Shown: piece by piece, positions 1-13,532 of the stretch
Layout of the letters: each line of letters starts with the position of its first letter
Position numbering within the stretch: position 1 is the stretch's first letter
NCBI GenBank assembly: GCA_025526995.1
Contig: JAHLKG010000011.1
Coordinates: 1-64,000, forward strand
Length of the DNA: 64,000 nt
Direction of reading: 5' to 3'
Origin: Powellomyces hirtus
Lineage: Eukaryota > Chytridiomycota > Chytridiomycetes > Spizellomycetales > Powellomycetaceae
Program-made: the position numbers and the translations under genes
Notes under the pieces: model-generated
Databases searched by the model: none
Told to the model about the DNA's origin: nothing
The model's input: the letters and a program-made list of their open reading frames with translations, nothing else

Positions 1-237
1 GACGCGATAAACTGCCTCCAAGGAAGAAAAATGATCAGTACGGTTTGGCGACGCGTACACTAATTTGCACCGTAAGTTTTTGATTGGGAAGATTGATTGG
101 GTTTTAATCTTTCCGATACCAAGGGAGTTTCCATCACTGAGATGAGAAGCGGAACCATTGATTTGGCACTCTTGTTTTTCTACCTCACTTATCCCACCGA
201 ATGACAGATGGAGCTACAATTTTGAACACTATTGGAA

Positions 238-921
238 ATGAGTACTGAAAGCAAAAAAAGCTGCTTTAACTTGCTTCTGCAGCTCCAAGTGCGGAAGAAG
301 GACTTGACCCCATCCACCAGTGAGGCAAAACAGATAATACAAGATTTCACCACCAACGTTGTGGAACTCGTTGAAGGCCTTCACACCAGTCTCTACGACT
401 CGTCCGACCAGGATACGCGAACAAGCAACAAAAACTCTTCCGAGAACACTGAACAGTTTCAAGTCGAGTTAGGCTGGACTATACCCAACCATGTGACCCC
501 TGCGACACTTGAACCTTTGGCGGATACTCCCACCATCCACATCCTCTTTGCGGATGACGATGTCATTACACAACGAATGTTTGAGCGTTATTGGAAAAAG
601 TACTCCCCTCGCGTTTCAGTGTCTACTGCATCAGATGGCGTCCAAGCCATTGCTCTATTTAAGAAACAACGCTTCTCCATTGCATTTACCGATATTGAAA
701 TGCCATTTAAGGATGGCCTTACTGTTGTTAGTGAAATACGGGCTTTCGAAAGAGAGACCTCTTCACCACCGGTACCCGTCATCGGCGTAAGTGGTTACTC
801 TACGCGTTCGTACCAAGAAAAGGGTATGGCTTTGGGATTCACTGATTTTGTACAGAAGGGGGTAGGCTTCCAAATGAAGGATTGTCATACTTTAGTAGAG
901 CGTTACTGCGGCGTCATCTAA
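238..921 (+). CDS. Stand-alone response-regulator receiver protein
   Basis: Single-exon 227-residue protein. The first ~98 residues have no recognised domain. Residues ~99-225 form a receiver (REC) domain: acidic cluster DDD at 106-108, phospho-acceptor Asp152 in FTDIEMP, switch Ser185 after the VIGVS strand, and conserved Lys207 in FVQKG. All the residues needed for phosphotransfer are therefore present. Such proteins take phosphate from histidine kinases or phosphotransfer proteins, and no output domain is visible. The ATG at 238 is chosen over an upstream in-frame TTG. Family knowledge gives two-component signalling in the cytosol or nucleus. The partner is unknown, although a double hybrid kinase lies 13 kb downstream. 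Fairly sure of the domain, not of the pathway. Confidence 0.8.
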   Translation: MSTESKKSCFNLLLQLQVRKKDLTPSTSEAKQIIQDFTTNVVELVEGLHTSLYDSSDQDTRTSNKNSSENTEQFQVELGWTIPNHVTPATLEPLADTPTIHILFADDDVITQRMFERYWKKYSPRVSVSTASDGVQAIALFKKQRFSIAFTDIEMPFKDGLTVVSEIRAFERETSSPPVPVIGVSGYSTRSYQEKGMALGFTDFVQKGVGFQMKDCHTLVERYCGVI

Positions 922-988
922 ACGTCGGCGTTTGTTAAGCTTCAATGAACCGCGCTTGTAAATTTTTCAGTATTGTATAGGTAAAACA

Positions 989-1339
989 ATGTACTTTAAC
1001 CGAGAGACATCTACATTCAAAGACAAGGCTTCTGTGGACGCTATTGTTAAAACTTTTGAAGACGACCCAGTGTTCTCCATTGTCCCTGAAAATGTCAGGA
1101 GGGAGATCCTAGATGCCTTCTACAAGGACTTGGCAGAGAACCGCGTCGAAGAACTACTCCGCGAATCCAAGCCAAAGACGCCAAGGAAACGAAAGGCAGC
1201 CCCAAAGAAGGAGGATGAAGATTCAAAAAAGAAGTCAGCCCCAAAGAAGAAGTCGTTTGATGTCCGCCGTGCAGCAATGTCTGGGAAGGAAGAGGAGCCT
1301 GTTGCTATCTTTGGCGACCAAACAGAAGACAAGGAATGA
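989..1339 (+). CDS. Small basic protein with FF-like motif
   Basis: 116 residues, single exon, starting 68 bp after the receiver gene on the same strand. Residues ~15-52 read like the C-terminal half of an FF domain (the Prp40/CA150 helical module that binds phosphorylated partners), with a D-P-x-F-x-x-I...R-R-E-I-x-D-x-F pattern. Residues ~60-90 are very rich in Lys and Pro (repeated APKKK blocks) and look like a nuclear localisation or nucleic-acid-binding tail. The C-terminus is acidic. The FF assignment is by eye on a short region and could be wrong. A small nuclear protein is the safest reading. Confidence 0.5.
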   Translation: MYFNRETSTFKDKASVDAIVKTFEDDPVFSIVPENVRREILDAFYKDLAENRVEELLRESKPKTPRKRKAAPKKEDEDSKKKSAPKKKSFDVRRAAMSGKEEEPVAIFGDQTEDKE

Positions 1340-1393
1340 AAAGCATTATGTCTTATTGAAAAGTGTTTACATCGTTGAGGGATAACTATCCTA

Positions 1394-1966
1394 CTAGTGG
1401 AGAATCTTAATATCTGTAATAGGGTGACGGCACAGGGGGCAGAACATGTCATCAAAGGCATCTAGTTCAAGCATGCATTTTCCGCATGTATGGTGACCAC
1501 AAGCTAAGACGACAATGGTAAGTTGCTCATATGTTTCGAAACATACAGGACAGTCCAACTCAGGTTTCTCCAATGATTGACTTTGTGCGATTTGTTGCAC
1601 TCGAAGCCTGCCGAGCTGTTCTTCCAAATGCTCCGCGTTGCGTTGCTCGAGTTGTGCATCCTCTTCCAAGCGAGACGTGAGCCTGGCCAGACGGAGTCGA
1701 TAGTGGCGGGCAAGTACTCGATAGTGTAGTCTTGCGCCCGACACGGTGAGCCTTTGAAGGGCAGCCTCTGCGAGCGGTGCAAATTGACGGTTGCGTTGAG
1801 CTGGCATTGCGTGACTGAGGAATTGGTTGGTGACTTGAGCTGATGGTTGGTGACTTGAGGAATTGGTTGGTGACTGCGCTGATGGTTGGTGACTGCGCTG
1901 ATGGTTGGTGATTGAGGAATTGGTTGTTGCCCGAGGAATTGGTTGGAGGGCAGTTTTGGCCTGCAT
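1394..1966 (-). CDS. RING-finger protein, probable E3 ubiquitin ligase
   Basis: 190 residues, single exon, convergent with the preceding gene and only 54 bp from its stop. The C-terminus holds a C3HC4 RING: CPVC, then C-x-H in ACGHH, C-x2-C in CGKC, and final CPLC, with near-canonical spacing. RING fingers recruit E2 enzymes for ubiquitin transfer. Residues ~60-125 are Arg/Leu/Glu-rich and likely a coiled coil. The first ~55 residues are a Ser/Pro/Gln/Asn repeat encoded by the 19-20 bp tandem repeat listed separately, which runs to the start of the gene. Substrate unknown. Confidence 0.75.
   Translation of the reverse strand: MQAKTALQPIPRATTNSSITNHQRSHQPSAQSPTNSSSHQPSAQVTNQFLSHAMPAQRNRQFAPLAEAALQRLTVSGARLHYRVLARHYRLRLARLTSRLEEDAQLEQRNAEHLEEQLGRLRVQQIAQSQSLEKPELDCPVCFETYEQLTIVVLACGHHTCGKCMLELDAFDDMFCPLCRHPITDIKILH
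1817..1949. repeat. 19-20 bp tandem repeat inside RING gene
   Basis: About seven copies of a 19-20 bp unit built on GGTTGGTGACT, alternating between GAGGAATTGGTTGG and CTGATGGTTGG starts. Because units are 19 or 20 bp, the encoded peptide changes frame between copies, giving mixed SPTN, HQPSAQ and NHQRS stretches in the N-terminus of the RING protein. Confidence 0.85.
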
Positions 1967-3504
1967 TTTTCCGTTGGCTTTTATCCAAAAAAATTTCCCA
2001 CTTCTATCGACAGAAAACCGCGCTTTTGGCGATTACCGGTTGCCTGGCCATGAGTGTCCCACCAGTCGGGTTGTGCGGGAAGAGACAGTACGTCACTGTC
2101 CCACCTGTCGGCTTGCGCGGGAGGAGACAGTAGGAGACTGTCCCACCAGTGAGCAGTGCCAAGTCGGCCATTTTGATCGATCAATGCAAAAGAGAAAACA
2201 GGGGAAAGAGCGGGGTGGACAGAATCCCCCCTCGAGTAAGCCCAGGAAACCCAGTACCCAGGGGACAAAGAAAGCTGCAAGTCAGGCGGGTAAGAGTGGA
2301 AAAGAGAGTTGAGCACGTGTGAGAGAGAGAATTCTGAAAAAAGGAATCCTAGTATAAGAAGTTTATAAAATTTGTGTTGGGTTTCCTGGGTTTGGTAAGC
2401 GAGAAAGGAGTGGCTATGAGAAAGAAGGAACGCGTTGGACATTGGACACACCGGTAGCCAAAACGCGTGAAAAAAACAAGACATATGCAGCTCTGGGAAT
2501 CTCAAAGGGACAGAGGAGGATGCGGAGGCCAGGATGTGAAAGGCAGAGCTTAGAATCAAGTGGGGCACAAGGCTCCCATATTAGCAGTAGAGGGAGTGGT
2601 ATGTAGGGAGAGTATGGAGGAATGGGTCAAGTTGGGTAACGTTGGGAAGGCTTATGGAGAGGGCATCGAGAGGCAACCCAAGAAACCCAGTACCCAAAAG
2701 GAATATTAATCTTGACAGAAGAGAGGCAAAGTGGAAAAAAGAAGTTGACAACTTGTGAGTGAACAAAAAAATATGAAATACGATTTACAATATAAGTTTT
2801 TTATAGAATTTGGGTTGGGTTTCTTGGGTTTCTTTCGATGAATGGAAACAAATGGAACATGGGTATAAGGCGTTACCTCGATGGAGCCATGGAGGCATTT
2901 GTCAATGGAACCCAAGGTACCCAGGGTCTAGAAGAGGCAATGGATGAGAAAGGGGGATGGATGGGGCGGGAGGGGATAAGGGGGTCAGCTGTTCAACTAC
3001 AAGTGTATCAGCTACGACGGGAAGCTATCGATAGGCGGAAGAGGTGTGAATAGAATCCTATTTAAGCAAAGTCGCAACTGGTGGTAGCCTCAGTACAGTG
3101 GGAGGACGAGGAGGCCAAAGAGCCATATAGGACAAGGAGCCAAGCGGCTCATTTAGGACACATACATCAAGCTATGGGATGCGCTATAAACAATACAGCG
3201 CTTCTACTTAGACCAAGTGGAAGAATACAACTGGTGTCCGTTTGGATGCTGGGGCATAAACCCTTCTTTCCCAGGGGGGTTTTGCTGTTTTGGCGCAAAG
3301 TACGCACAGATGAGAGAGGGTGCTTACGTAATCAAAGTCGCGGGCTTTCGGACAAGGTGTGGCTTGGGCAAGGACAGACGCGTCGGTGGAAGGGAGGCCA
3401 AAAGGGAGCACACGGCAGCTAAGTGACCTTTGAGTAGACACAGCTCCAAAACGTCGCAAAGTGTTAACTGAACTTGTACTTAGGTCGCCAAAAGTGCCTT
3501 CTCA
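1967..3504. other. Gene-poor stretch with diverged repeats
   Basis: No supportable gene. It contains a 42-43 bp tandem repeat at about 2055-2157 (two and a third copies beginning GTCCCACC), and a diverged tandem duplication of ~435 bp (about 2235-2665 and 2665-3000), each copy opening with AAACCCAGTACCC and carrying a TTGGGTTTC-CTGGGTTT block about 135 bp later. Open frames here are short and lack recognisable motifs. Confidence 0.6.
2235..3000. repeat. Diverged ~435-bp tandem duplication
   Basis: The block at 2240-2400 (AGCCCAGGAAACCCAGTACC, then AGTGGAAAAGAGAGTTGA, then TTGTGTTGGGTTTCCTGGGT) recurs in order at 2672-2832 with substitutions and small indels. A third partial start (AACCCAAGGTACCCAGG) is at ~2909. 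Within each copy the AAACCCA box and the later TGGGTTT box are inverted relative to each other. Confidence 0.6.
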
Positions 3505-3600
3505 TCGGCAAACCATGGCAAATGTACCAATGGCCCTGGGCAAACCGTGCTAAATGTACCAGTGCCCAAAATAGGCACAAACCATCCAACTGTACCTGTC
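3505..3600. repeat. Three imperfect ~31-bp direct repeats
   Basis: GGCAAACCATGGCAAATGTA, GGCAAACCGTGCTAAATGTA and GGCACAAACCATCCAACTGT begin three successive units ending in ACC(A/T)-GT/AT. They abut the 52-bp palindrome and may mark the left border of the mobile element. Confidence 0.6.
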
Positions 3601-3648
3601 GCAGGCCACTGATCCAACTCACGTGAGTTGGATCAGTGGCCTGCGACA
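3597..3648. repeat. Perfect 52-bp palindrome, no spacer
   Basis: 26 bp from TGTCGCAGGCCACTG onward are followed directly by their exact reverse complement, centred on CAC|GTG at 3622/3623. The pairing breaks immediately outside (C/C mismatch). Perfect palindromes of this length without a spacer are rare and cruciform-prone. It sits just upstream of the Ulp1-like exons and at the likely left side of the element. Confidence 0.95.
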
Positions 3649-3710
3649 CCGAGATTTCATCACAAATGGCATCATTGCCAACCGCGTTGGTCACGGACAA
3701 ATCCCCTGAG

Positions 3711-4497
3711 ATTTTTGGATTGACGACACAACCATTCATGAGTGGATGGTTCTCCTCGAACATCAAGGACAACGGCATGTTGAGCACTATCCGCAGGTCT
3801 ACACGATTGAGCCTTCCATTTGGAAAGCAAATGTTCAAGACACTCAGAACTACCATAAAATCCTTCCGGTAGGTCCAAAACAGGCGCTTGTCGAACAGAA
3901 GCGCTCATCAAAGAGAGGCGCTTATCGGAGGGAATTTGGCGCTTCCAATCTGACTTGACATTGTTCTTTCAAACAGGCCCGCCTCATTGTTGAGTCTTAC
4001 GACATCATTGCGCTCCCATATAATCATGGCGGCAACCACTGGAACCTCATTTGGATCGATAGGAGGGTTGGGCAGGGTTTCCTCTTTGAGCCGATCAAGA
4101 GCACGCATCTTGATGCCGAACAGAAGAGAACGGTTAGGGTGCTTGTCCAGGAGGTTTGGAAGACGCGTCTCGGTCAACCATCAAAGCTTCCTTTCACGGC
4201 GATCTATGGGAATCAGACGGACGTGATCAACTGTGGGGTTTACTGTTGCATGATGGCAGATGCCATTATCTGTCGAGGCTGTGGTCAGAATGAATATGGC
4301 GCATTCTCACCCTTGATGCCATGTGGGCAAGGATCATCATCGCAGCATCACTGATGACCGGGCGCATTCTGAATGACCACGACACGGCACCATATTTTGG
4401 GCCGGTGCGGTACAATGTGAGGGAAAAAACCAAGAATGGCTCTTCGTCCAGAAATGGCAACGGCACTGTGTTGCAGATCATTGATCTGGACGACTGA
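3711..4497 (+). CDS. Ulp1-like (C48) cysteine protease, possibly disrupted
   Basis: Two exons give a Ulp1/SENP fold. Exon 3711-3868 encodes the typical opening (DFWIDDTTIHEWM), and intron 3869-3976 (108 nt, GTAGGT...AAACAG, phase 0) joins the second exon. There the catalytic His is in NHWNLIWID, an acidic residue is in FLFEPI (Glu where Asp is usual), the oxyanion Gln is in GNQTDV, and the nucleophile Cys is in INCGVYCC (codon 4232-4234). These proteases remove SUMO from conjugates, and transposons capture them repeatedly. Oddities: an in-frame TGA at 3707 just before the first exon, and a frame stop at 4354 although a family-like C-terminus (ARIIIAASLMTGRI) continues in another frame to 4497. 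An unseen intron or a frameshift is needed. Start not determined. Confidence 0.6.
3876..3945. repeat. RGCGCY cluster, left side of element
   Basis: Four spaced copies (AGGCGCTTG, AAGCGCTC, AGGCGCTTA, TGGCGCTTC) in ~70 bp, lying inside the Ulp1 intron. Comparable clusters occur at 4520-4575, 6010-6070, 6745-6825 and 11,655-11,735. Confidence 0.7.
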
Positions 4498-4499
4498 CA

Positions 4500-4600
4500 G
4501 TGGCCCGTTTGAAAAAAGAAGGCGCTTGGTGGAAACCGTAAGCGCTTGGTTGGAAAGTGTTTGGCGCTTGTTTGTTTACATTGAACTTAAATTAAAAAAG
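4500..4600. repeat. RGCGCY cluster between convergent genes
   Basis: Three copies of a GGCGCTTG/AGCGCTTG motif, each followed by G/T-rich sequence (AAGGCGCTTGGTGG, TAAGCGCTTGGTTGG, TTGGCGCTTGTTTG), in the gap between the Ulp1-like and dioxygenase genes. The spacing is about 25 bp. Confidence 0.7.
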
Positions 4601-4646
4601 GTCTAGTGAGCACTTGTTCGTTTACAATTAAATAATGGTCGAAAAA

Positions 4647-5984
4647 CTAGCGAGCGCGTCCTCCTCCCGGTTTTCGCGCCGGGCCTTCCCCAATTTCACC
4701 TTGCCCATATTTCCGGATCGCGGCGGCTGTGATTGATGGGACTGTGATTGATGTTGTGTAACGCGGGCCACCTGATGTGTCCAGTTGGGCCGTGCAATGA
4801 AATCGGCCAGATTGCCACGTCCAGAAGCAATCCGGCTCCAGGAGGATGTAAAAGCCTTCCTTTGGGTATACGAAGACCCAATCACCTTTGATTTCAGGTC
4901 CAGCAGCACAATAACCCAAGGCCCAACGCGCTTCCAACTTGCGCTTGGTTTCCGTCGGGTCAAGCAAGTCATCGGGAGGTGTCATTCCCATTGGCTTTCC
5001 AGTTGCCCTCAAGATCTCGCCACGAAGCCCGTCATCAAGGTCATCTGTATGACAAACGGCCACGTAGTCCTCCGTTGCAAACATGGGTGGAACAATTTCC
5101 TCAAATTCAGCAAGCGCCTGGTCAGCGGCAAGGAGGAGGTAGCTGGCACATTCTGGATGGCGCAAGGAGGCTTCCGCTAGAAGCTCTTTTGCGAACGAGT
5201 GTTCCGTTGCAACAAGGAACTTGGCGTCAGAAGCTGAGATGTTGTGCTTCAGGGTGAACTTCAAGACGGTTTTGTCGTATACACACCTCGAAGACCCCCG
5301 GCGGAGTCCGGCGCCTACCATGATGCCAGTCGCCTTCCGGATGGCGCCTTGAGTGACTGGAGGGCGGGAGCTGCAAGATGTCCTCAAAATGGCCAAGCGC
5401 CTGTCATGTTCTTTCTGCCCATTGGAATTGTAACAGATTGTGCCAATGAGCTCGCCACCTTCGTCGTAGAACCAGAAGTCCGTTCCAGGACTGGGCTCGA
5501 TGCGTTGCAGACCCTCGAGGTTCCGGGAATTTGGCAGCTTGTCGCCAAAACTGGTGTCAATATATCGCCCTTTGAATTCAGCGAGTTGGGCCGTGGGTGG
5601 CGTCTTGATGATGATGCGGCGATGAGGGCGTCGGCCGGGAGCACCAGAACCGGAAGCGCTTGGGCCATCCTTGCGATATGTAGTCGCTGTTATGGTGCCA
5701 TCAAGAACATCCGCTACTCGCTGCTTGACGTCCTCTTGACGGAACTTTTTTCGACGGTGCTGGACGCGCCCAAGCTTCCCACGGAGGCGCCAGTCCTCAT
5801 GCAGGTCAGGGTGGTCATATTCCAGATGCTTGATGATGCGGGAAACTGCGGCCGGTGGGTCACCTTCGTCAACAAGTTCAAATCCTCGAAGGAGTGGGAT
5901 GAGGCCATTGTTGACATCTGAAAACGTGGCGCAGCACTGTTCTGAAGACATTTCCGGGAGAATATGAACAACCGGCGCATGCAT
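4647..5984 (-). CDS. 2OG-Fe(II) dioxygenase, TET/JBP-like candidate
   Basis: From the Met at 5984 the protein is 445 residues. The C-terminal half has a double-stranded beta-helix signature: His312-x-Asp314 in CHTDD, His396 in RFHC, and Arg408 twelve residues later in GPRYTTS, which fit iron and 2-oxoglutarate binding. The stretch DWVFVYPKEGFYILLEPD between them matches the 'gG.fv.p..g..v...pGd' strands of the fold. N-terminal residues ~20-120 are charged and may bind DNA. Family role: oxidation of a substrate such as 5-methylcytosine (TET), thymine (JBP) or protein. The position inside a transposon favours a DNA role by analogy with fungal KDZ elements. The frame stays open upstream to 6518, but only through DNA repeats, so the later Met is preferred. 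A prolyl-hydroxylase-type enzyme is the alternative. Confidence 0.65.
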   Translation of the reverse strand: MHAPVVHILPEMSSEQCCATFSDVNNGLIPLLRGFELVDEGDPPAAVSRIIKHLEYDHPDLHEDWRLRGKLGRVQHRRKKFRQEDVKQRVADVLDGTITATTYRKDGPSASGSGAPGRRPHRRIIIKTPPTAQLAEFKGRYIDTSFGDKLPNSRNLEGLQRIEPSPGTDFWFYDEGGELIGTICYNSNGQKEHDRRLAILRTSCSSRPPVTQGAIRKATGIMVGAGLRRGSSRCVYDKTVLKFTLKHNISASDAKFLVATEHSFAKELLAEASLRHPECASYLLLAADQALAEFEEIVPPMFATEDYVAVCHTDDLDDGLRGEILRATGKPMGMTPPDDLLDPTETKRKLEARWALGYCAAGPEIKGDWVFVYPKEGFYILLEPDCFWTWQSGRFHCTAQLDTSGGPRYTTSITVPSITAAAIRKYGQGEIGEGPARKPGGGRAR

Positions 5985-6000
5985 TTCGGCATTCGCTTCT

Positions 6001-6078
6001 AGAAAGGCTTTTTTCTGGAGGAGAAAAGGAATGATTAGGCGCTTGATTGAAGAATGATGAGGCGCTCGATTGAAGTAG
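6001..6078. repeat. RGCGCY cluster upstream of dioxygenase
   Basis: ATTAGGCGCTTGATTGAAGA and ATGAGGCGCTCGATTGAAG repeat head to tail about 27 bp apart, just 5' of the preferred dioxygenase start. The similarity extends beyond the hexamer, so each is a ~19 bp element. Confidence 0.7.
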
Positions 6079-6117
6079 GGGCACCATTTTTCATCTTTCA
6101 AAAGAGGGGTTAGGAAG

Positions 6118-6490
6118 GGCGCCATGGTTGTTGGGCCCACAAGGCCTTTCATTCTCACGGTGCCATGTTCCTGAGCAGGCGCCAAGGTTGTTGGGCCCGC
6201 AAGGCCTTTCATTCTCATCGCGCCGCAATCCGAAAACAACTCCAACGAAAAGCCCGAGCGGAACGGAAGAGGCGCCAAGGTTGTTGGGCCCGCAAGGCCT
6301 TTCATTCTCATGGCGCCGCAATCCAAAAACAACTCCAACAAAAGCACGAGCGGAACAGAACGGGTGCCGAGGTTGTTGGGCCCGCAAGACCTTCCATTCT
6401 CACGGCGCCACGTTCCCGAGCTGGCGCCAAGGTTGTCGATTGTCGGACCCGTCGGGCCTTTCATTTTCATGGTCCCACCACAGGAGCGCC
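6118..6490. repeat. Five tandem copies of a 60/92-93 bp unit
   Basis: Units start at 6118, 6178, 6271, 6363 and 6423 with GGCGCCAAGGTTGTTGGGCC or close variants, continue with CAAGGCCTTTCATTCTCA, and are 60, 93, 92 and 60 bp apart. The two long copies carry an extra ~33 bp (CAATCC-AAAACAACTCCAAC...). Both edges carry GGCGCC, linking the array to the element-wide hexamer. On the minus strand parts read MKGLAGPTTLAP, but unit lengths break the frame, so it is more likely DNA signal than protein. Confidence 0.85.
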
Positions 6491-6537
6491 AGCGACAAAG
6501 CGAACAGGGCCAGAACACTCACCAGCATTTGAGGGGA

Positions 6538-6552
6538 GGGGGGGGGGGGGGG
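6538..6552. repeat. G15 homopolymer
   Basis: Run of 15 G after GAGGGGAGGG, in the gap between the divergently transcribed dioxygenase and transposase. It could form a quadruplex or exclude nucleosomes; function not shown. Confidence 0.8.
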
Positions 6553-6744
6553 TAATAGAGGGGTTGAAATGCTGTGGAAGATGTGCCAGAATTGACGTGA
6601 GAGTTTTGCCTGAGAGGTGACTATGGGAGTTCATCACTTGGGAGTTGAGGTTGACATGAAAGTTGTGACGAAATTCCATCTTTTGAACCACTGGTTCAAA
6701 CCGGAATGGCAGATTCGAATCCACACAGGCGCCAATCTTTGAAC

Positions 6745-6826
6745 ATCAGAAGCGCTTGAGTGAGTCGCTGATTCGAACCATGAAGCCAATGAGGCGCCAA
6801 CAACGGATTTCGACAAGCGCTTGAGC
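6745..6826. repeat. RGCGCY cluster before transposase
   Basis: AGAAGCGCTTGAGTGAG, ATGAGGCGCCAACAACG and ACAAGCGCTTGAGCTGG lie within 80 bp directly upstream of the transposase ATG. Two of them share AAGCGCTTGAG. Confidence 0.7.
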
Positions 6827-6835
6827 TGGAAAATC

Positions 6836-9800
6836 ATGAGGTCCGCAAATGAAGGGCCTCCATCTCAATTCCAACTCAATTCGGAGTCTCATCTGATGGA
6901 TCGACACACCACGGGACTGAGCTCCTTCTTTTGTTGCTGGAAAGGACCGGATGGGGTCAAGTTCTGGGAATGCCGACTTTGTAACTCTTGGCTCGGCTCG
7001 TCCAGAACGCTGAGAGAAAGTCGTCGGCAGCGACATCTTGCAACCCGAAGACACCAACGGCGCATTGCACATCTGGAGTTTGAAAGCGGACAGGATGACA
7101 TCGAAAGGCATGTTCCTGGCATCCCAGAGCCTGAAGATGACAACTTGGATGACATTAGTCCCAACTCTGACCTGTCCAGCCATGCCATTACTACATGCGA
7201 CTTTGATGACCTTGTCTCCCTTGAAAGTTTTGATGGCGACAATTCCGAACAAGCACCAGATTTGGCGTCTCCAGAGTCGCCTGATCGGTCAGTCACTGCA
7301 TCACCCGATGTCTTCATGAGGTCCATGCGGTCCGAATATTGGCCATTTTCAACAAAGGAGCATTTCTTCTCAGCTCTTTTGTTCAGTGGGACGCGCCAGC
7401 GCCTGTCAGTTCGAGTGCGGAAATGGATTTGGTGGTGGGCGCGTAGCTTGGGGCTCCGTCTTCCATCCCTCAAGTCTATTCAAAAGGAGATGCATGCCGC
7501 CCGCAATGTAGCAGGATGCCACACATATGAAGAAAACTCGGTCTCTGGGCGCCCTTTCTTTCAAAATTCCCTTTTGGACACTATTCGGCGGGCGATATCA
7601 AATCCTGTGGTTGTGGGGCTGTTGGAAACATATCCTGAAGAGACTACACGGCCTTCAGAACTGTGGTATGGTGTGAAGTGGCATGAGGAACCCATTCTGC
7701 GAACGCCTATGGTCAGGGTTAACGGTCTTGATTTCTATACCGGGGAAACGGCGATGACTGGTGATGGAACACTTATCAGAATCATGAAATTCTTCAAAGT
7801 CAAAGGGAAACTGTCCTTTTCGGGGACAATATTGACGGAACTGCCCGCTCTTCCAGAGACTCCGGTTGGACAATTGTTCGCCCTTGCACGCCATCCATTA
7901 TCCTCCATTACAAGGCCCGTGGAAGATCTGTTACCGAGCGCCTCAATAACAATGGTTGTCGAACAGGAAGCCGATGGAGCCATCTTGAACATCCAAGCGC
8001 CTGTGAATCATTGGCGCCAAACTGCCAATGGTCGTCGGATTCTCGTTGTTCCCCTCATGATGTTCTGTGATGGTTCTTCTGGCAACATATCAAAACAATG
8101 GAACAATCATGACACTTGGATATTCACGTTGGCTGGTCTTCCATTTGACCAACGAAGCTCAGATTACCATCAGCACTTTGTTTGCACAAGCAACGGACTT
8201 GATGGGATGGAAATGACAAGCGCCATTGTCGCCCAATTGAAGCAGCTCACCGAGGGCATCTCATGTGTTCATGGCGTCTCCCATGAGCCATTGCTTGTGA
8301 TTGGAGGACTGCTATGTCTGCTGGGCGACAACCCCCAGTCGAGCAAGTTTTGCTGCCACAGTGGGTTAATGTCCTTGAAATGTTGTCATCGTTGTGAAGT
8401 GAGCCGCAAGCTGACAGACGCCGCTGGCCTTATTGAACTCGTCTCAACGCCCACAACACAACGGAACTGGCAAACAACGGCGGCCATCATTGCTCAACAA
8501 CTGCAGCTGTTATTTGAGAGACGCACCAAAACAAAAATCCGGGAGCTTCAGACTGCAACGGGCGTCAAATGCGTGCTTGCTCAAAAGGTCATTGACAAGG
8601 CGAGTCCCCTCCATTCATATTGGCGCTTGCAACTGGCGGTTGGCGCTTAACATCATGTCTTTTCATAAACATTCCAGATGGGCGCCCAAAGTGGAGATTT
8701 CCCGGCCGATTTCATCAGAGAGGGTCTCCCTTCCTTACTGCAGAGACGCAATCCCCTCCTTCAATTGCCGGGGTTTAATGGGCATTTGGATACCTCGGTC
8801 GAAGTCCTCCACACTGTGCTGCTTGGGTTTGTCAAATATGTTGGCAATCAAACGATCAAATATGGCCTTGTGACAGGCGTCAACCGAGCGACAAACAAGG
8901 CGACAGTCATCGCCAGGATTGACTCGTTTGATGCTAACGGCACAGATCGAGGACCAATGCGGGGGTCCACATTTGTAACCTATGTCGGATCTCTCATTGG
9001 AAGGGACTTCAAAGCTTTCATTCAAGCCGGGGTCTTCATTTTTCATGGGCACATTGCTGATGATGTGATGGCGATGTGGGAAAAACTGGCCGTGCTTTCC
9101 GTGTTGGTTTATGAAAACCGAATCTCGAACCTTGATGCATACTGTGATCAATTGGAAGCTGCAACAGACGCTTTCTTCGCCGCAGTCGCCAGCTTCTCCA
9201 TTCGACTTTTCAAAAAGACAAAATATCACATCTTTCGTCATCTAGTTCCGGACGTTCGTCGTTTTGGACTTCCTCGCCACTACCATACTGAAACATCTGA
9301 GAGGTTCAACCATGCGATACGCAGTCAGTCCGTACATAGCAACAGACAGGCGCCATCATTGGACATCGCGAGCGGTTTCTCTCTTCTCGCCACTATGCGC
9401 CATATTGTCTCGGGAGGCATTCTGCGAGCGCCAGCAGAGCCTGAAGCCCCGTTGGAGCTGATTCATGCGTCCGAGGCGATAACTTGTCTTGCAGGTGACC
9501 CCACCGTACAGGCGCTCTTTGGCATCCAACTGAAGGCGTCAGCGTTTGTCCTGCAAAAAGGAATGTTTGTCCTTCTCTAAGACCGGCGCTTAGCTCGGAT
9601 TGCAGGTCAAACTAAGGCTGAGCTCGAGGTCGACCTTCTCCGGCTCGTCCCTGATGTTGTCTTTCATGGACTGCCCATTGTTGAGGAAACACCACATAGA
9701 CGCTCGGTCTCACCTGCCGATGTGAAGGCAATTCTGAATTTCCAGCACCACTGTGCGGCCGCAGGATGCGCCATCGCTGTGACGGGACGGAAGCGTTTGG

Positions 9801-10048
9801 AGCGTTGTGAAACCACCATAATGAGGCGGTCTATTTTGCATGGGCCTCTCCAACAGTTTGTAGTGAACCTACATTGCATTAAAACAGCCCAAGCGCTTCG
9901 GACAATGGTTCCAAAACTAGATCGGGAGGAAAATGCTGCCAGATTGAAGGAGACCCTGAGCCGAACATGGTCAAGCGCCAAGGACACAGGCGCCAACACT
10001 CCCCGGTTGGTCACGGGCGCTAGTGGACGGTGCCTCAAGCGCCAATGA
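6836..10048 (+). CDS. RNase H-fold transposase with N-terminal zinc finger
   Basis: Exon 6836-8587, intron 8588-8677 (90 nt, in phase, removes a TAA), then frame 2 open to 10048 apart from one TAA at 9578-9580; about 1040 residues. Residues ~45-75 form a C-x2-C...H...H finger (CRLCNSW...RHLATRRH). Asp412 lies in MMFCDGSSGNISKQWNNH, the motif that fungal transposon proteins of this size share as C-D-D-x-S-G-N...K-W-N-x-H. The second exon has HLDTSVEVLHTVLLGFVKY and later SERFNHAIRS-SVHSNRQAPS, both hallmarks of the same basidiomycete/chytrid family, and the end has the expected Cys/His-rich FQHHCAAAGC and FVVNLHCIKTAQAL. It probably cuts and joins the element's ends, in the CACTA/Plavaka/KDZ orbit. 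The internal TAA means either an unseen short intron or inactivation. Confidence 0.75.
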
Positions 10049-10129
10049 AGAGGACAAAGGCGCCAAGAGCTCCACATAGGTGCCATAGCAACAGCGCTTA
10101 AGTCTACACCTTCTGTCTACCACACCAAA

Positions 10130-10136
10130 TATAAAA
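10130..10136 (+). promoter_or_regulatory. TATA box for accessory gene
   Basis: TATAAAA in CCAAATATAAAATC, 67 bp before the ATG at 10203 and 82 bp after the transposase stop. It is followed by the C/T-rich tract usual before fungal start sites, which suggests a separate transcript. Confidence 0.55.
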
Positions 10137-10202
10137 TCTTGGCCTCCTCCGTTGGACCCTTTTTTCCTTCTCACTCACACCCTGAACCCTTAATTGTCCT
10201 TC

Positions 10203-11651
10203 ATGACCCATCCGACACATCCAGAGTACTCCCCCAATCCATTTGACACACCAGCAGCAAAGAGACGACGAACATCAAGTAACAGCCACAGGCAGCTCAT
10301 GTGGAGTGCCCTGCAACCCGCCGAAAGTCCAACACCCACAAGCTCAAATGCAGGCTCAGATATCCGGCCCTCATCTGGGGTTGCCAACCAGTCCTCTCTC
10401 CTGGCACAAGCACAAGCGCATGTGAAACAGTTAACTGGAGAAATGGTGGGTGGGTGGCGCTTGATTAACCCCCACATGGATGAAATGCCATAACTCTTCG
10501 TTCAGGTCCCAGCTTTAGCGGGGATGGGCTCTATGTCACAAGGAGAACTGGTGATACTGGGGGTTGTCATCCGTCTAATGGCAGAAATGACAAAACTTCA
10601 GGGTCAGTTGGCGGCTAGCTTCTCCTTAAGCGCCAGTGATATGGTATGCATTCAGTTGCGGCGCCTGTTGACTCTCACAACATACTTATGGCGTCTTCAT
10701 TTCTAGTCAGTGATTCGAGCCAAAGTTGGAAAGCACATGAGTCGGCCAGACCTTCCCAGTTATAACAACCGCGGTCATGGCATCTCAGACGAGATCTGGA
10801 AACAGATGGTGGAAGCAGAGACGTTTCCCCGTTCTCTTACCCGAAAAGATCACGTCAAGACCACCGTTCAAAAGCACATCAGTTATTGCATCTCTCAATG
10901 GAAAGCAGCGCGGAAAGCAGATGTAAGTCTCTTTTGGCGCCAATGTAAGCGCCAAACTCATTTGAGCGAGCGCTTCTCAGCTCCTAGGATCGGCGAGGGG
11001 CCAAATCAACCGATATGATCTTCCCACTTTTACCAAGCGACTGTTCGTCATTCGATCCTCGCCCACAAGTGACCAAATGGCACGCGCTGCGCTCTTGGTG
11101 AGAAGTCGGAACTGGCGCCTGATATCGTTGAATGCCATGTGTGTTCACCATTATGTCGACAGCGTCATGTAGTTGAAGCGCTTGAGAAGAAGGGAAAAAC
11201 ACCAGACCAGAAGAGCGAGCTTCTGTGGTCGACTGTGGAGGATTATTTAGCGGCTATCTTCAAGTGTCCACCCTCGGAACAGGCGACATTCCTAAGCACG
11301 GTTGTCTCTCAGGATCTGGCGCTCTGGAAAGGTGCGGCGCCAGACTCGGATGAGGGCGAAGATGAAGACACTTGCCGGCGCCAGTCCATGGCCACTTCGA
11401 AAGCCAATTTCAGAATGGAGCCTAGCCCAATCCTGCCAGAGGACGAGGATTCTGACAATGAAGTCGATCATCTCCCCCCAATCTCGGCGTTCGCAGGTCC
11501 CGCCAACTCTGCTCCGCCCTTAACCTATGGCAACTCTTTCACCGTGGATAGCGGGTTCCCGGGCCAGTTTGCACATTCTACCAATATCCAGGACTCAGGG
11601 ATCTTTCCCAGTCAAGCATTAACCAACGACTCCCTTACACAATTGGATTGA
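10203..11651 (+). CDS. Element accessory protein, unknown function
   Basis: Multi-exon frame following the transposase: exons 10203-10445, 10506-10643, 10707-10922 and 10988-~11,070/11,097, with a last exon ending 11651. The first three introns are 60, 63 and 65 nt with good GT-AG ends and keep phase. Residues ~15-25 carry a basic patch (AAKRRRTSS) that could be a nuclear signal. Exon 2 is an amphipathic helix, possibly dimerising. Exon 3 has a basic region (DEIWKQMVEAETFPRS, then HVKTTVQKHISYCISQWK). The last exon starts helical (HVVEALEKKGKTPDQK) and then becomes acidic and Ser/Pro-rich. No family recognised. By position it may be the DNA-binding helper protein that CACTA-like elements encode beside the transposase, or an activator. 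The intron 4 boundary is unresolved. Confidence 0.55.
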
Positions 11652-11654
11652 TCC

Positions 11655-11735
11655 GTTTGGCGCTTGTGGGAGTCCATAAGCGCTCGATTAGCTGCCATAG
11701 GCGCTCAATTAGCAGCCCATAAGCGCTCAATTAAA
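11655..11735. repeat. RGCGCY cluster, right side of element
   Basis: Four copies spaced 22-28 bp: TTGGCGCTTGTGGGAG, CATAAGCGCTCGATTAGC, CATAGGCGCTCAATTAGC and CATAAGCGCTCAATTAAA. The last three share CATARGCGCTCRATTA. This is the best candidate for a subterminal repeat array of the right end. Confidence 0.8.
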
Positions 11736-11739
11736 TCTT

Positions 11740-13532
11740 TTTTGCAATAAAATCACATATGCTCCGCAACAAAATGTGAACTATTTCCGCTGTTTGTCCC
11801 CGGGTTTAATGGACGTTTTTGACAATCGATGGCCGTGCCGCCACATTGATGCAAAAAATCAAGGACAGGAACGTGCCTCGAGCGCCAAATTCCCGAAAGG
11901 GAGAAGTGGAATTCCGGTGAATCACCGGCCAAGATTGTCGCCAAATAACGTTGGAAAGAAGATGGGGAAAAGCGCTGTTCCACTCACATTTGGAACGGAA
12001 TGTTGGTGTTGGATTTGTATCCGAAACATGGTGAACCCGCCATGGTATGTCCGGCTTTGTCACATTGGTTTTGTCTGAAACTGGCGTCTAAACTTCCATC
12101 TGACGAGCGTTTGCCGGGCAGTGGTTGACCCATATCTCCTCTCAAACGTGGAAACACGTCGACATAGTGGTGACCTTTTTTAATGGGTTTGCGTCAAAAG
12201 TGGGACGTATGCACACGCAAATTCTTTTGTGTGTCCAACGTCAAAAAAGCACGTGGATTGGTCGCTGCAGGGGTTCACGGTGTAGGGTGTGGTGCAGCGG
12301 TGAGGAAGGGGCATGTGAGTCACTTGGACGGAATCCAACCGAGTCAGAACGAGACCATGTGAAAAGATTAGGCACATTCCAGGACACGTGACAGAGTTCG
12401 CAATCCGCCGAGGGTATTCCTTAACCCCCCTTGAACAAGGCGCACCCAGTCGGTCGTGTGCGCAGCCTATATAAACGCTGGGAATAGCAAAGGCAAACGC
12501 ATGCGGTTTCATTCACTTGCGACAGGTGTCCATTGCGTATCGATATCGAAATACATCGCAGGCTGCAGTTGCCCCATTGGTTCCTACAGCGATCCTTAGA
12601 TGATACTGGATGTAGGTCAGATACGAGGCTGGTGTATGGCTGAGTCTAAATATAGGGACGGGGTGAGTCATGGAGGGATGGGGGGTGCCAAGTCGTGGGT
12701 TACCAGGCAGTCGGATGTGTGTGTGCAACGCTGTCATGCTTCCTTCTGTCCGGGTACCAGCAGTACGCACGCCGACGAAAGCAAGTCTTGCAGGTCGAGA
12801 CTCCTTCCTCTTTCACCCAGTTCCAAAGGGCATGCATGGAGCCGTGGGGGTGGAAGCAGCAGCAGCAGCAGCAGCCGCCTCAGCCTCAGCCTGACGCACG
12901 TTAACGAACGCTCAATCCCCCCATCGACCATCCACGCCCCCCATCAACAATCCCATCCCTCGCAGTCGTTTCATGCCGTGAGTACCGTATTCTTATCGTT
13001 CTCGTTGGCTGTCTGTCTGTCTGTCTGTCTGTCTGCGGGTTTGTTTGTTGTTCTTGTCCCGTCAGTCCGTCTGGCCTTGTTACCAGCGGAACTGCACGGA
13101 ATTAAATTGTCTCGCAACAACCAACCAACTGACTGACTGACTGACTGACTCGCTTGACTGACTGACTAAATCCACCTCGCCTCACGACTTTTGTTTGTTT
13201 TGCCACCCTCGCCCTCTCTCCCACACACACACACACACACACATCACTCCCACACGCCCGTCTACTTTCCTCCCTCCCGTTGTGTTTTCGTCCATCTTCC
13301 GTGGCCGTTGCCGCGAGAGAAACAAGCCAGCCCTGCTTTTCATCCGCCGGCCGCCCTCGCCCAGTTGTGCACACCCTTCTCATCAGCGCACCCGGTTCCC
13401 TGCTCCAATTTCGTCTCTCAGCCTCAGTCTCAGACTCGCCATCGTCCCTGCCTTGTCCCCCGTTTCCAGCGCGCTGCCCAGCACTCTCGGCTGCTTGAAG
13501 GTCACCGCTTCAGCACATAGACTGCTGTTGAC
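11740..13532. other. Element right flank and kinase 5' region
   Basis: No supportable gene. RGCGCY occurs only sporadically (about 11,883 and 11,970), so the element border lies before ~12,100. A TATA box (TATATAAA, 12468-12475) stands ~1 kb before the kinase start. From 12,990 the DNA becomes a microsatellite-rich, C/T-rich leader. Confidence 0.5.
13011..13243. repeat. Microsatellites in kinase leader
   Basis: (GTCT)6 at 13011-13034, (GACT)n at 13128-13150 and 13154-13167, and (CA)11 at 13221-13243, all in the probable 5' leader or promoter of the kinase gene. Confidence 0.85.

Follow-up and report, generated by a model that had tools for sequence, protein, structure and literature searches.

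We analyzed a window of 64,000 nucleotides from the chytrid Powellomyces hirtus (assembly GCA_025526995.1, contig JAHLKG010000011.1, here C11:1-64000) and found in it the right-hand part of a mobile element in which four genes travel together. Read from the left, the first codes for a Ulp1-like protease whose N-terminal portion is rich in repeats and the second, in the opposite orientation, for a dioxygenase-like protein; a DDE-type transposase gene and a gene for a small accessory protein follow. Our overall account, which we hold tentatively and rate somewhat short of an even chance, is of an ~11-kb cut-and-paste transposon of the CMCT kind that bears a Ulp1-like C48 gene, an antisense dioxygenase-like gene, the transposase and the accessory gene. 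In this account the transposase would cut at inverted repeats of ~13 bp, with probable TA target duplications; the dioxygenase-like protein would oxidise methylated bases on element DNA, 5-methylcytosine (5mC) being the first choice, and so relieve silencing; the Ulp1-like protease would remove SUMO or process an element protein; and dense GCGCTT/GGCGCC motifs would bind an element protein. The same dioxygenase-like domain recurs in an unrelated retrotransposon, and this recurrence of an orphan domain is the most interesting lead of the analysis.

A DNA search of the genome (29.3 Mb in 60 contigs) with the block found, besides fragments, a nearly full copy elsewhere on contig C11 (98%), a copy on C23 (95% in its main piece) and the right half of a copy on C4 (92%); we refer to these as the C11, C23 and C4 copies, next to the window copy. 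The prediction from the letters alone that the four genes form one mobile element was supported: two further copies, at different sites, contain the whole block in the order seen in the window, four copies exist in all, and six terminal-repeat matches all lie at known termini. When flanks were added to the comparison, all four copies shared a right boundary at window position 12284, reading ...GGGGTTCACGGTG-TA, and the C11 and C23 copies extended on the left 2.35 kb past window position 3649, up to TA-CACCGTAAACCC, their left ends reading TACACCGTAAACCC. Inverted repeats of ~13 bp, (TA)CACCGTRAACCC, bound the transposon in both of these complete copies, which have TA at both ends; the outer TA at the right end is probably a target duplication. 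The pattern TACACCGTNAACCC had six exact matches in the genome (the right end of the window copy, both ends of the C11 and C23 copies, and the right end of the C4 copy) and 27 more with one mismatch, while a control pattern read backwards gave 44 matches at up to one mismatch. Full-length matches to the left 2.35 kb were confined to the C11 and C23 copies, with short divergent remnants elsewhere, and divergent end remnants of the transposon were seen at C6:890980-891243, C18:631311-631453 and C6:987142. The copies have themselves been invaded: that on C11 is split by a 6.2-kb element with end repeats of ~240 bp (435343-441525), and those on C23 and C4 hold two inserts each. Only the right half of the C4 copy is retained, and through this truncation it lacks the dioxygenase-like and Ulp1 genes. 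This copy, the protein P0006 discussed below and the dioxygenase-domain homologues outside the element (in Copia elements and at one locus not beside Copia pol) count on the side of chance adjacency; the shared termini and the repeated gene order argue against it.

The transposase is encoded in two to three exons, and the motifs named in the sequence-only reading were located in it (C-D-G-S-S-G-N at 8066, K-Q-W-N-N-H at 8093, D-T-S-V-E-V-L-H at 8789 and S-N-R-Q-A-P-S at 9338). A KDZ (Kyakuja, Dileera, Zisupton) membership was not supported. Pfam holds a KDZ model, yet neither the transposase exons nor the proteins P0005-P0007 gave a Pfam match, NCBIfam gave a single irrelevant one (E 0.16), and the sequences on either side of the C11 and of the C23 copy, compared by eye, share only TA and no repeat of 7-8 bp. 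Further motifs read by eye, CCHRC at 8381, HIFRH at 9227 and TETSE at 9287, fit the definition of the CMCT group by C(2)C and H(3-4)H ahead of the last acidic residue (PMC12730594), and the CACC..GGTG ends, which in both complete copies have TA on either side, compare with the CMCT pattern of 5'-CA..TG-3' and a duplication of 2-5 bp. By these motifs the transposase appears to resemble the Plavaka/EnSpm/ESTA (CMCT) group. The ends expected of Plavaka A or B (TGT..ACA; CATCA..TGATG) were not found, the ends here being (TA)CACCGTRAACCC. All five transposase homologues found among 7999 candidates scored were P. hirtus proteins. The ratio of nonsynonymous to synonymous substitution rates (dN/dS), counted here and below between copies and excluding codons with gaps or stops, was 0.26-0.52 for the transposase. 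The three pieces of the accessory gene that were scanned had no Pfam or other profile match, its pieces had dN/dS of 0.15-1.36 (few changes, one pair undefined), and a remnant of it lies at C6:987310-987447.

The protease assignment is supported by profile. The Ulp1 exon matched PF02902 in Pfam (E 8.3e-8; 32.8 bits against a cut-off of 20.7), and the His, Gln and Cys claimed for it were located in HWNLIW (4037), NQTD (4211) and NCGV (4229), respectively. The acidic residue, 17 positions after the His, is Glu and not Asp, so that the required His/acidic/Gln/Cys set is present; Glu occupies this position in the adenovirus protease as well. A PDB sequence search with the Ulp1 protein gave weak matches only (best E 0.2). 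All three genome matches to the exon fall within the four-gene transposon. Upstream of the Ulp1 domain, the C11 and C23 copies contain open pieces with VPVPAIEEA-type repeats, and the extra left 2.35 kb in which these occur probably makes up the opening portion of this gene. The dN/dS of Ulp1 between copies was 0.27-1.16.

The dioxygenase-like frame is intact: over 1872 bases it contains no stop and no indel in any of the three copies that carry it, the defective window copy included, and in the C23 copy the transposase has stops. The predicted catalytic residues stand where claimed, at H312 (5049-5051), D314 (5043-5045), H396 (4797-4799) and R408 (4761-4763), counted from the Met at 5984, and this HxD...H...R set is unchanged in the C11 and C23 copies. 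Among 8000 candidates scored, a homologue search returned the P. hirtus gene itself and three proteins of Fimicolochytrium jonesii, 35-36% identical over 94-95% of the query; both species belong to the Powellomycetaceae (Chytridiomycota). A search with an eight-row alignment, again with 8000 candidates scored, brought up no further relatives, and no viral relatives were found in IMG/VR. One of the F. jonesii proteins, P0002 (EV422DRAFT_563927), has H-x-D, H and R. In the alignment that we call A2, 17 columns are invariant in all eight rows, and H396 is the sole predicted catalytic residue among them. The N-terminal part had dN/dS of 0.25-0.75.

A search of the genome with the core of the dioxygenase-like protein gave 12 matches: the three element copies, one element fragment and eight others (E 9.5e-12 to 0.009). 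Seven of these eight adjoin Copia-type pol sequence, as judged by eye. The exception, L033 (C1:1326573-1326809), looks like a multi-exon gene with a dioxygenase-like domain and does not lie beside Copia pol; it is possibly a host gene or an older relative. The complete Copia example, on C23, has 503-bp long terminal repeats (LTRs) that are 99.4% identical, and encodes a 319-residue frame antisense to pol, between pol and the 3' LTR; its pol domains are RVT_2, rve and Chromo (E 3.5e-17), the chromodomain having been tested in this copy. It resides within the C23 copy of the four-gene transposon. Antisense frames are intact in three Copia copies (C1, C12 and C23), the remaining listed Copia copies of the domain being partial or stop-bearing. 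In these three the antisense frame is free of stops, the sense strand contains 2, 0 and 1 stops in its best frame, and dN/dS was 0.28-0.29 in all three pairs. The H-x-D, H and R are present in two of the three, the third having H-x-N. Fungal retrotransposons have been reported as a class without TET/JBP genes (PMC12730594). The antisense Copia frame is a lead on this point and not a contradiction, because its TET/JBP membership is unproven.

The case for an oxygenase is one of motif and of the spacing of the putative catalytic residues. The first and second His are 50 residues apart in all three Copia frames and 51 in L033; in the transposon protein and P0002 the distance is 84, through an insert of ~35 residues. 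In the transposon protein, in P0002 and in the Copia frames, where it reads R-F, an Arg stands 12 residues after the second His. A separate locus, L044 (C6:241423-242463), encodes a weakly Tet_JBP-like host protein (PF12851, E 4.1e-4, below the cut-off) beside a tandem repeat; its His residues are 50 apart and R-F follows the second by 10. It ranked 90 of 1193 sequences reported when the hidden Markov model (HMM) test was run with 2000 shuffles added. We put the chance that the dioxygenase-like protein has a 2-oxoglutarate (2OG)-type fold at about two in three.

We also examined how cytosines have changed in the copies, taking for every pair the piece with the longest alignment; the comparison covers mobile elements and no control genes, so a genome-wide CpG bias may contribute. 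Transitions at CpG exceeded those at other C/G positions 6.7-, 4.9- and 6.4-fold when the window copy was set against the C11, C23 and C4 copies (p 2.8e-27, 1.8e-23 and 6.5e-37), and 5.8-fold when the left part of the C11 copy was set against that of the C23 copy. TCG exceeded the other NCG contexts in the same three comparisons of the window copy (p 3.3e-10, 8.4e-4 and 7.1e-8) and had the top rate in all 12 comparisons made. The CpG ratio was 2.6-4.4 in five comparisons of LTR elements (Copia 3.5-4.4) and 1.8-3.3, from few events, in three of a further element, element A, described below. These TCG-biased CpG transitions suggest cytosine methylation, and resemble the TCG hypermutation cited for Pucciniomycotina in PMC12730594; C5-methyltransferase domains gave 14 matching pieces in the genome. 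A cytosine-methylation-like pressure on P. hirtus transposons thus probably exists, and an anti-silencing role of the bundle is plausible because the element copies bear this bias. It is improbable, in our estimate, that the oxygenase-like protein acts instead on N6-methyladenine (6mA), altering the abundant adenine marks of the host. That idea gains from the host range, P. hirtus and F. jonesii being among the three chytrids for which PMC11258239 gives over 1% 6mA and exactly the two species to yield relatives among the ~8000 candidates scored, and from CcTet, which is described as acting on both 5mC and 6mA (PMC13297926). It sits poorly with the scar on the transposon copies, which is a CpG/TCG, cytosine signature, and with Phycomyces, where highly expressed genes carry more 6mA (PMC11258239), so that its erasure would be of no obvious benefit to a transposon.

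The element is also dense in a CpG-containing motif. GCGCTT/AAGCGC occurs 40 times in its 8.6 kb, against 4.4 +/- 2.1 (maximum 13) in 500 dinucleotide shuffles, and GGCGCC 22 times against 2.4 (maximum 7) in as many. The density of GCGCTT is 4.6-5.5 per kb in the transposon (5.5 in the left part of the C11 copy) and 0.39-1.07 per kb in eight other stretches (the rest of the window, element A, three inserts and three flanks); on an approximate exon map the motif stands at 11.2 per kb in non-coding and 2.7 in coding sequence. As a guess, GCGCTT/GGCGCC are putative binding sites for an element protein. GCGCTT was retained more often than other CpG in the C4 comparison (Fisher p 0.0067), and the differences for C11 and C23 were not significant (p 0.1 and 0.093). 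As a closer control in C4, other GCGC sites numbered 13 retained to 9 lost by transition, the motif 15 to 3, and we do not use this retention as functional evidence.

Several results weigh against our account and have to be set beside the evidence above. The TET/JBP-type identity proposed from sequence alone was not borne out, as no 2OG, TET/JBP or AlkB profile of Pfam, NCBIfam or PHROGs matched the dioxygenase-like protein; a whole-genome search with PF12851 (Tet_JBP) gave five weak matches, all of them under the cut-off and outside the four-gene transposon. Neither hhalign nor HMM comparison linked the family to L044, and AlphaFold2 (four sequences) returned models with pLDDT of 32.5 and 36.0, both too poor to use. 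In P0003 L replaces H and C replaces R, P0004 is without the HxD stretch and the R, L033 has no Arg 12 or so residues after the second H, and one Copia copy has N for Asp. The dioxygenase core had dN/dS of 0.45-0.79, which indicates weak recent constraint. Furthermore, the four-gene transposon had the highest CpG ratios of the 12 comparisons, and those of Copia were not low, the opposite of simple protection. Genome searches for an empty site returned only the flanks of the copies themselves, so that the TA duplication is unproven, and the CMCT placement was made from motifs read by eye. Finally, P0006, a protein named for another strain, has the repeat region of the Ulp1 gene fused to the transposase, which suggests, from the protein alone, an internal-deletion derivative without the dioxygenase-like gene and the Ulp1 domain.

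Two further explanations draw on these results. The protein may not be an oxygenase at all and may be an orphan fold for binding DNA or chromatin in which H-x-D, H and R are incidental; we consider this unlikely, though far from negligible. It would account for the absence of profile matches in three libraries and of any PDB sequence match with A2 (a weak PDB match to deoxypodophyllotoxin synthase, E 1.7 over 32 residues, was set aside), for P0003, P0004 and L034 having lost or altered the HxD and P0003, P0004 and L033 having lost the Arg, and for H396 alone being a predicted catalytic residue among the invariant columns, and a protein of 445 residues easily has H-x-D, H and R by chance. It does not account for the H-H spacing shared by the Copia frames, L033 and L044, for the R-F that lies 12 residues after the second H in the Copia frames and 10 after it in L044, or for an H396 invariant in all eight rows. 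The negative profile result is not decisive, because the PE-type TET/JBP proteins of Kojima, too, came to light only through structure comparison (PMC12730594, section 3.2.3). Alternatively, the dioxygenase-like and Ulp1 genes may be passive cargo from which the element gains nothing, which we judge quite improbable. The dN/dS of the dioxygenase core and of Ulp1, the resemblance of P0006 to a derivative without both genes, and relatives that live in other elements agree with passive carriage; the unbroken frame in three of three copies, the purifying selection on the antisense Copia version and F. jonesii homologues spanning nearly the whole query speak against it.

Known systems offer precedents for parts of the proposed CMCT-kind transposon. 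TET-bearing DNA transposons of fungi comprise Plavaka, ESTA, EnSpm, KDZ, IS3EU, hAT7, PHISTA and Helitron (Kojima 2025, PMC12730594), and like these the element is a DDE transposon with an oxygenase-like gene; CA..TG-type ends with a TA duplication would fit ESTA, and C(2)C, H(3)H fit the CMCT group. Unlike them, it lives in a chytrid, the abstract of that survey naming Pucciniomycetes, Agaricomycetes and Pezizomycetes; it adds a Ulp1 gene, the main text of the survey having no mention of Ulp1, peptidase or SUMO; and its oxygenase-like protein has no TET/JBP profile match and its ends differ from those of PlavakaA and PlavakaB. KDZ elements are also fungal and can carry TET/JBP genes; here there is no Pfam match and no duplication of 7-8 bp was seen. 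A C48 protease domain on a DNA transposon is known from Ginger1, where Ulp1 is C-terminal on the transposase, and from Mutator, where it is element-encoded (PMC2836005); here it is a separate gene beside the oxygenase-like one. The Copia element recalls an orchid Ty3/Gypsy element with an AlkB m6A RNA demethylase (PMC9289625), an LTR retrotransposon with an acquired 2-oxoglutarate oxygenase, and differs from it in being a fungal Copia with a chromodomain, an antisense frame and no oxygenase profile match. In the open-licence PMC literature we found no single transposon that joins a TET-like gene to Ulp1, and no transposon-borne TET-like gene in a chytrid.

The window copy is defective, without an intact Ulp1 gene or transposase frame. 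Its left part of the Ulp1 gene is gone and the length of exon B is one base off relative to the C11 and C23 copies; a stop at 9578-9580 interrupts the transposase where the other three copies have a sense codon, the tail of the transposase is off their register by two bases, and an intron donor is GC where they have GT. The edges first given for the block (3597..11740) needed correction: positions 3597-3648 are a palindrome that ends another element, the transposon resumes at 3649, and its right edge is at 12284, its true left end not lying within the window. The palindrome was considered as part of the transposon and ruled out, as it ends element A (1-3648, with copies on C25 and C8), which meets the transposon inside the Ulp1 gene, at the point where the C11 and C23 copies carry 2.35 kb more. 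The features are collected in the table.

Features of the four-gene transposon, element A and the related Copia elements
Feature	Position	Strand	Basis or remark
Right-hand 8.6 kb of transposon in window	3649..12284	+	blastn against C11, C23 and C4 copies
Partial Ulp1-like exon, left side cut by element A	3649..3868	+	reading frame, GT donor at 3869; continuous in C11, C23
Ulp1-like C48 catalytic exon	3977..4351	+	PF02902; frame shift near its end relative to C11, C23
Dioxygenase-like gene, 607 aa as in P0001	4647..6470	-	within 623-aa open frame 4647-6518, intact in window, C11 and C23 copies
Tandem repeat coding MKGLAGPTTLAP-type repeats, N-terminus of dioxygenase-like frame	6113..6477	-	sequence
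Transposase exon 1, start codon not fixed (C-x2-C, CDGSSGN, KQWNNH, CCHRC)	6764..8599	+	open frame
Transposase exon 2 (DTSVEVLH, HIFRH, TETSERF, SNRQAPS)	8678..9580	+	ends in stop, sense codon in C11, C23, C4
Former transposase C-terminal tail	9581..10045	+	out of register by two bases relative to C11, C23, C4
Accessory gene	10203..11651	+	exons about 10203-10445, 10506-10643, 10707-10922, 11073-11651; splice sites by eye
Right terminal inverted repeat TACACCGTGAACCC	12271..12284	-	exact genome matches at copy ends
End of element A, ~25 kb, Maverick/polinton-like, interrupts Ulp1 gene of transposon	1..3648	+	copies on C25, C8
52-bp perfect palindrome, terminus of element A	3597..3648		copies of element A compared
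Copia LTR element with antisense dioxygenase-like frame	C23:548885-556590		complete example, 7.7 kb
Further intact antisense Copia frames	C12:826157-827116; C1:1818657-1819616		genome search with core

Element A itself appears, from its gene content and ends, to be a Maverick/polinton-like element in a chytrid. Its copies at C25:28544-53149 and C8:760242-785197 have long inverted repeats of 1.4-1.5 kb, each terminating in the 52-bp perfect palindrome, and 5-bp duplications (ACGGA, TCGGA). Genes for an rve integrase (E 1.6e-11) and for a Pox_A32-type ATPase (E 3e-6) lie in its ends, and the portion in the window codes for a response regulator as well as a RING finger.

Taken together, these observations raise a broader possibility, which we regard as doubtful: that a new oxygenase-like family of the Powellomycetaceae was taken up separately by a CMCT-type transposon, together with Ulp1, and in antisense by a chromodomain Copia, amid TCG-biased CpG erosion. 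If so, unrelated mobile elements, a retrotransposon included, would have recruited one counter-silencing enzyme. The bundle offers, within a single element, a pairing of base-mark erasure and SUMO removal that can be tested, and a host with high 6mA (PMC11258239) and cytosine-type transposon decay lets one ask which mark the elements fight. Should the enzyme prove real, the erasure of DNA marks by transposon-borne genes would reach chytrids, and with them an LTR retrotransposon, outside the three fungal lineages that the survey lists.

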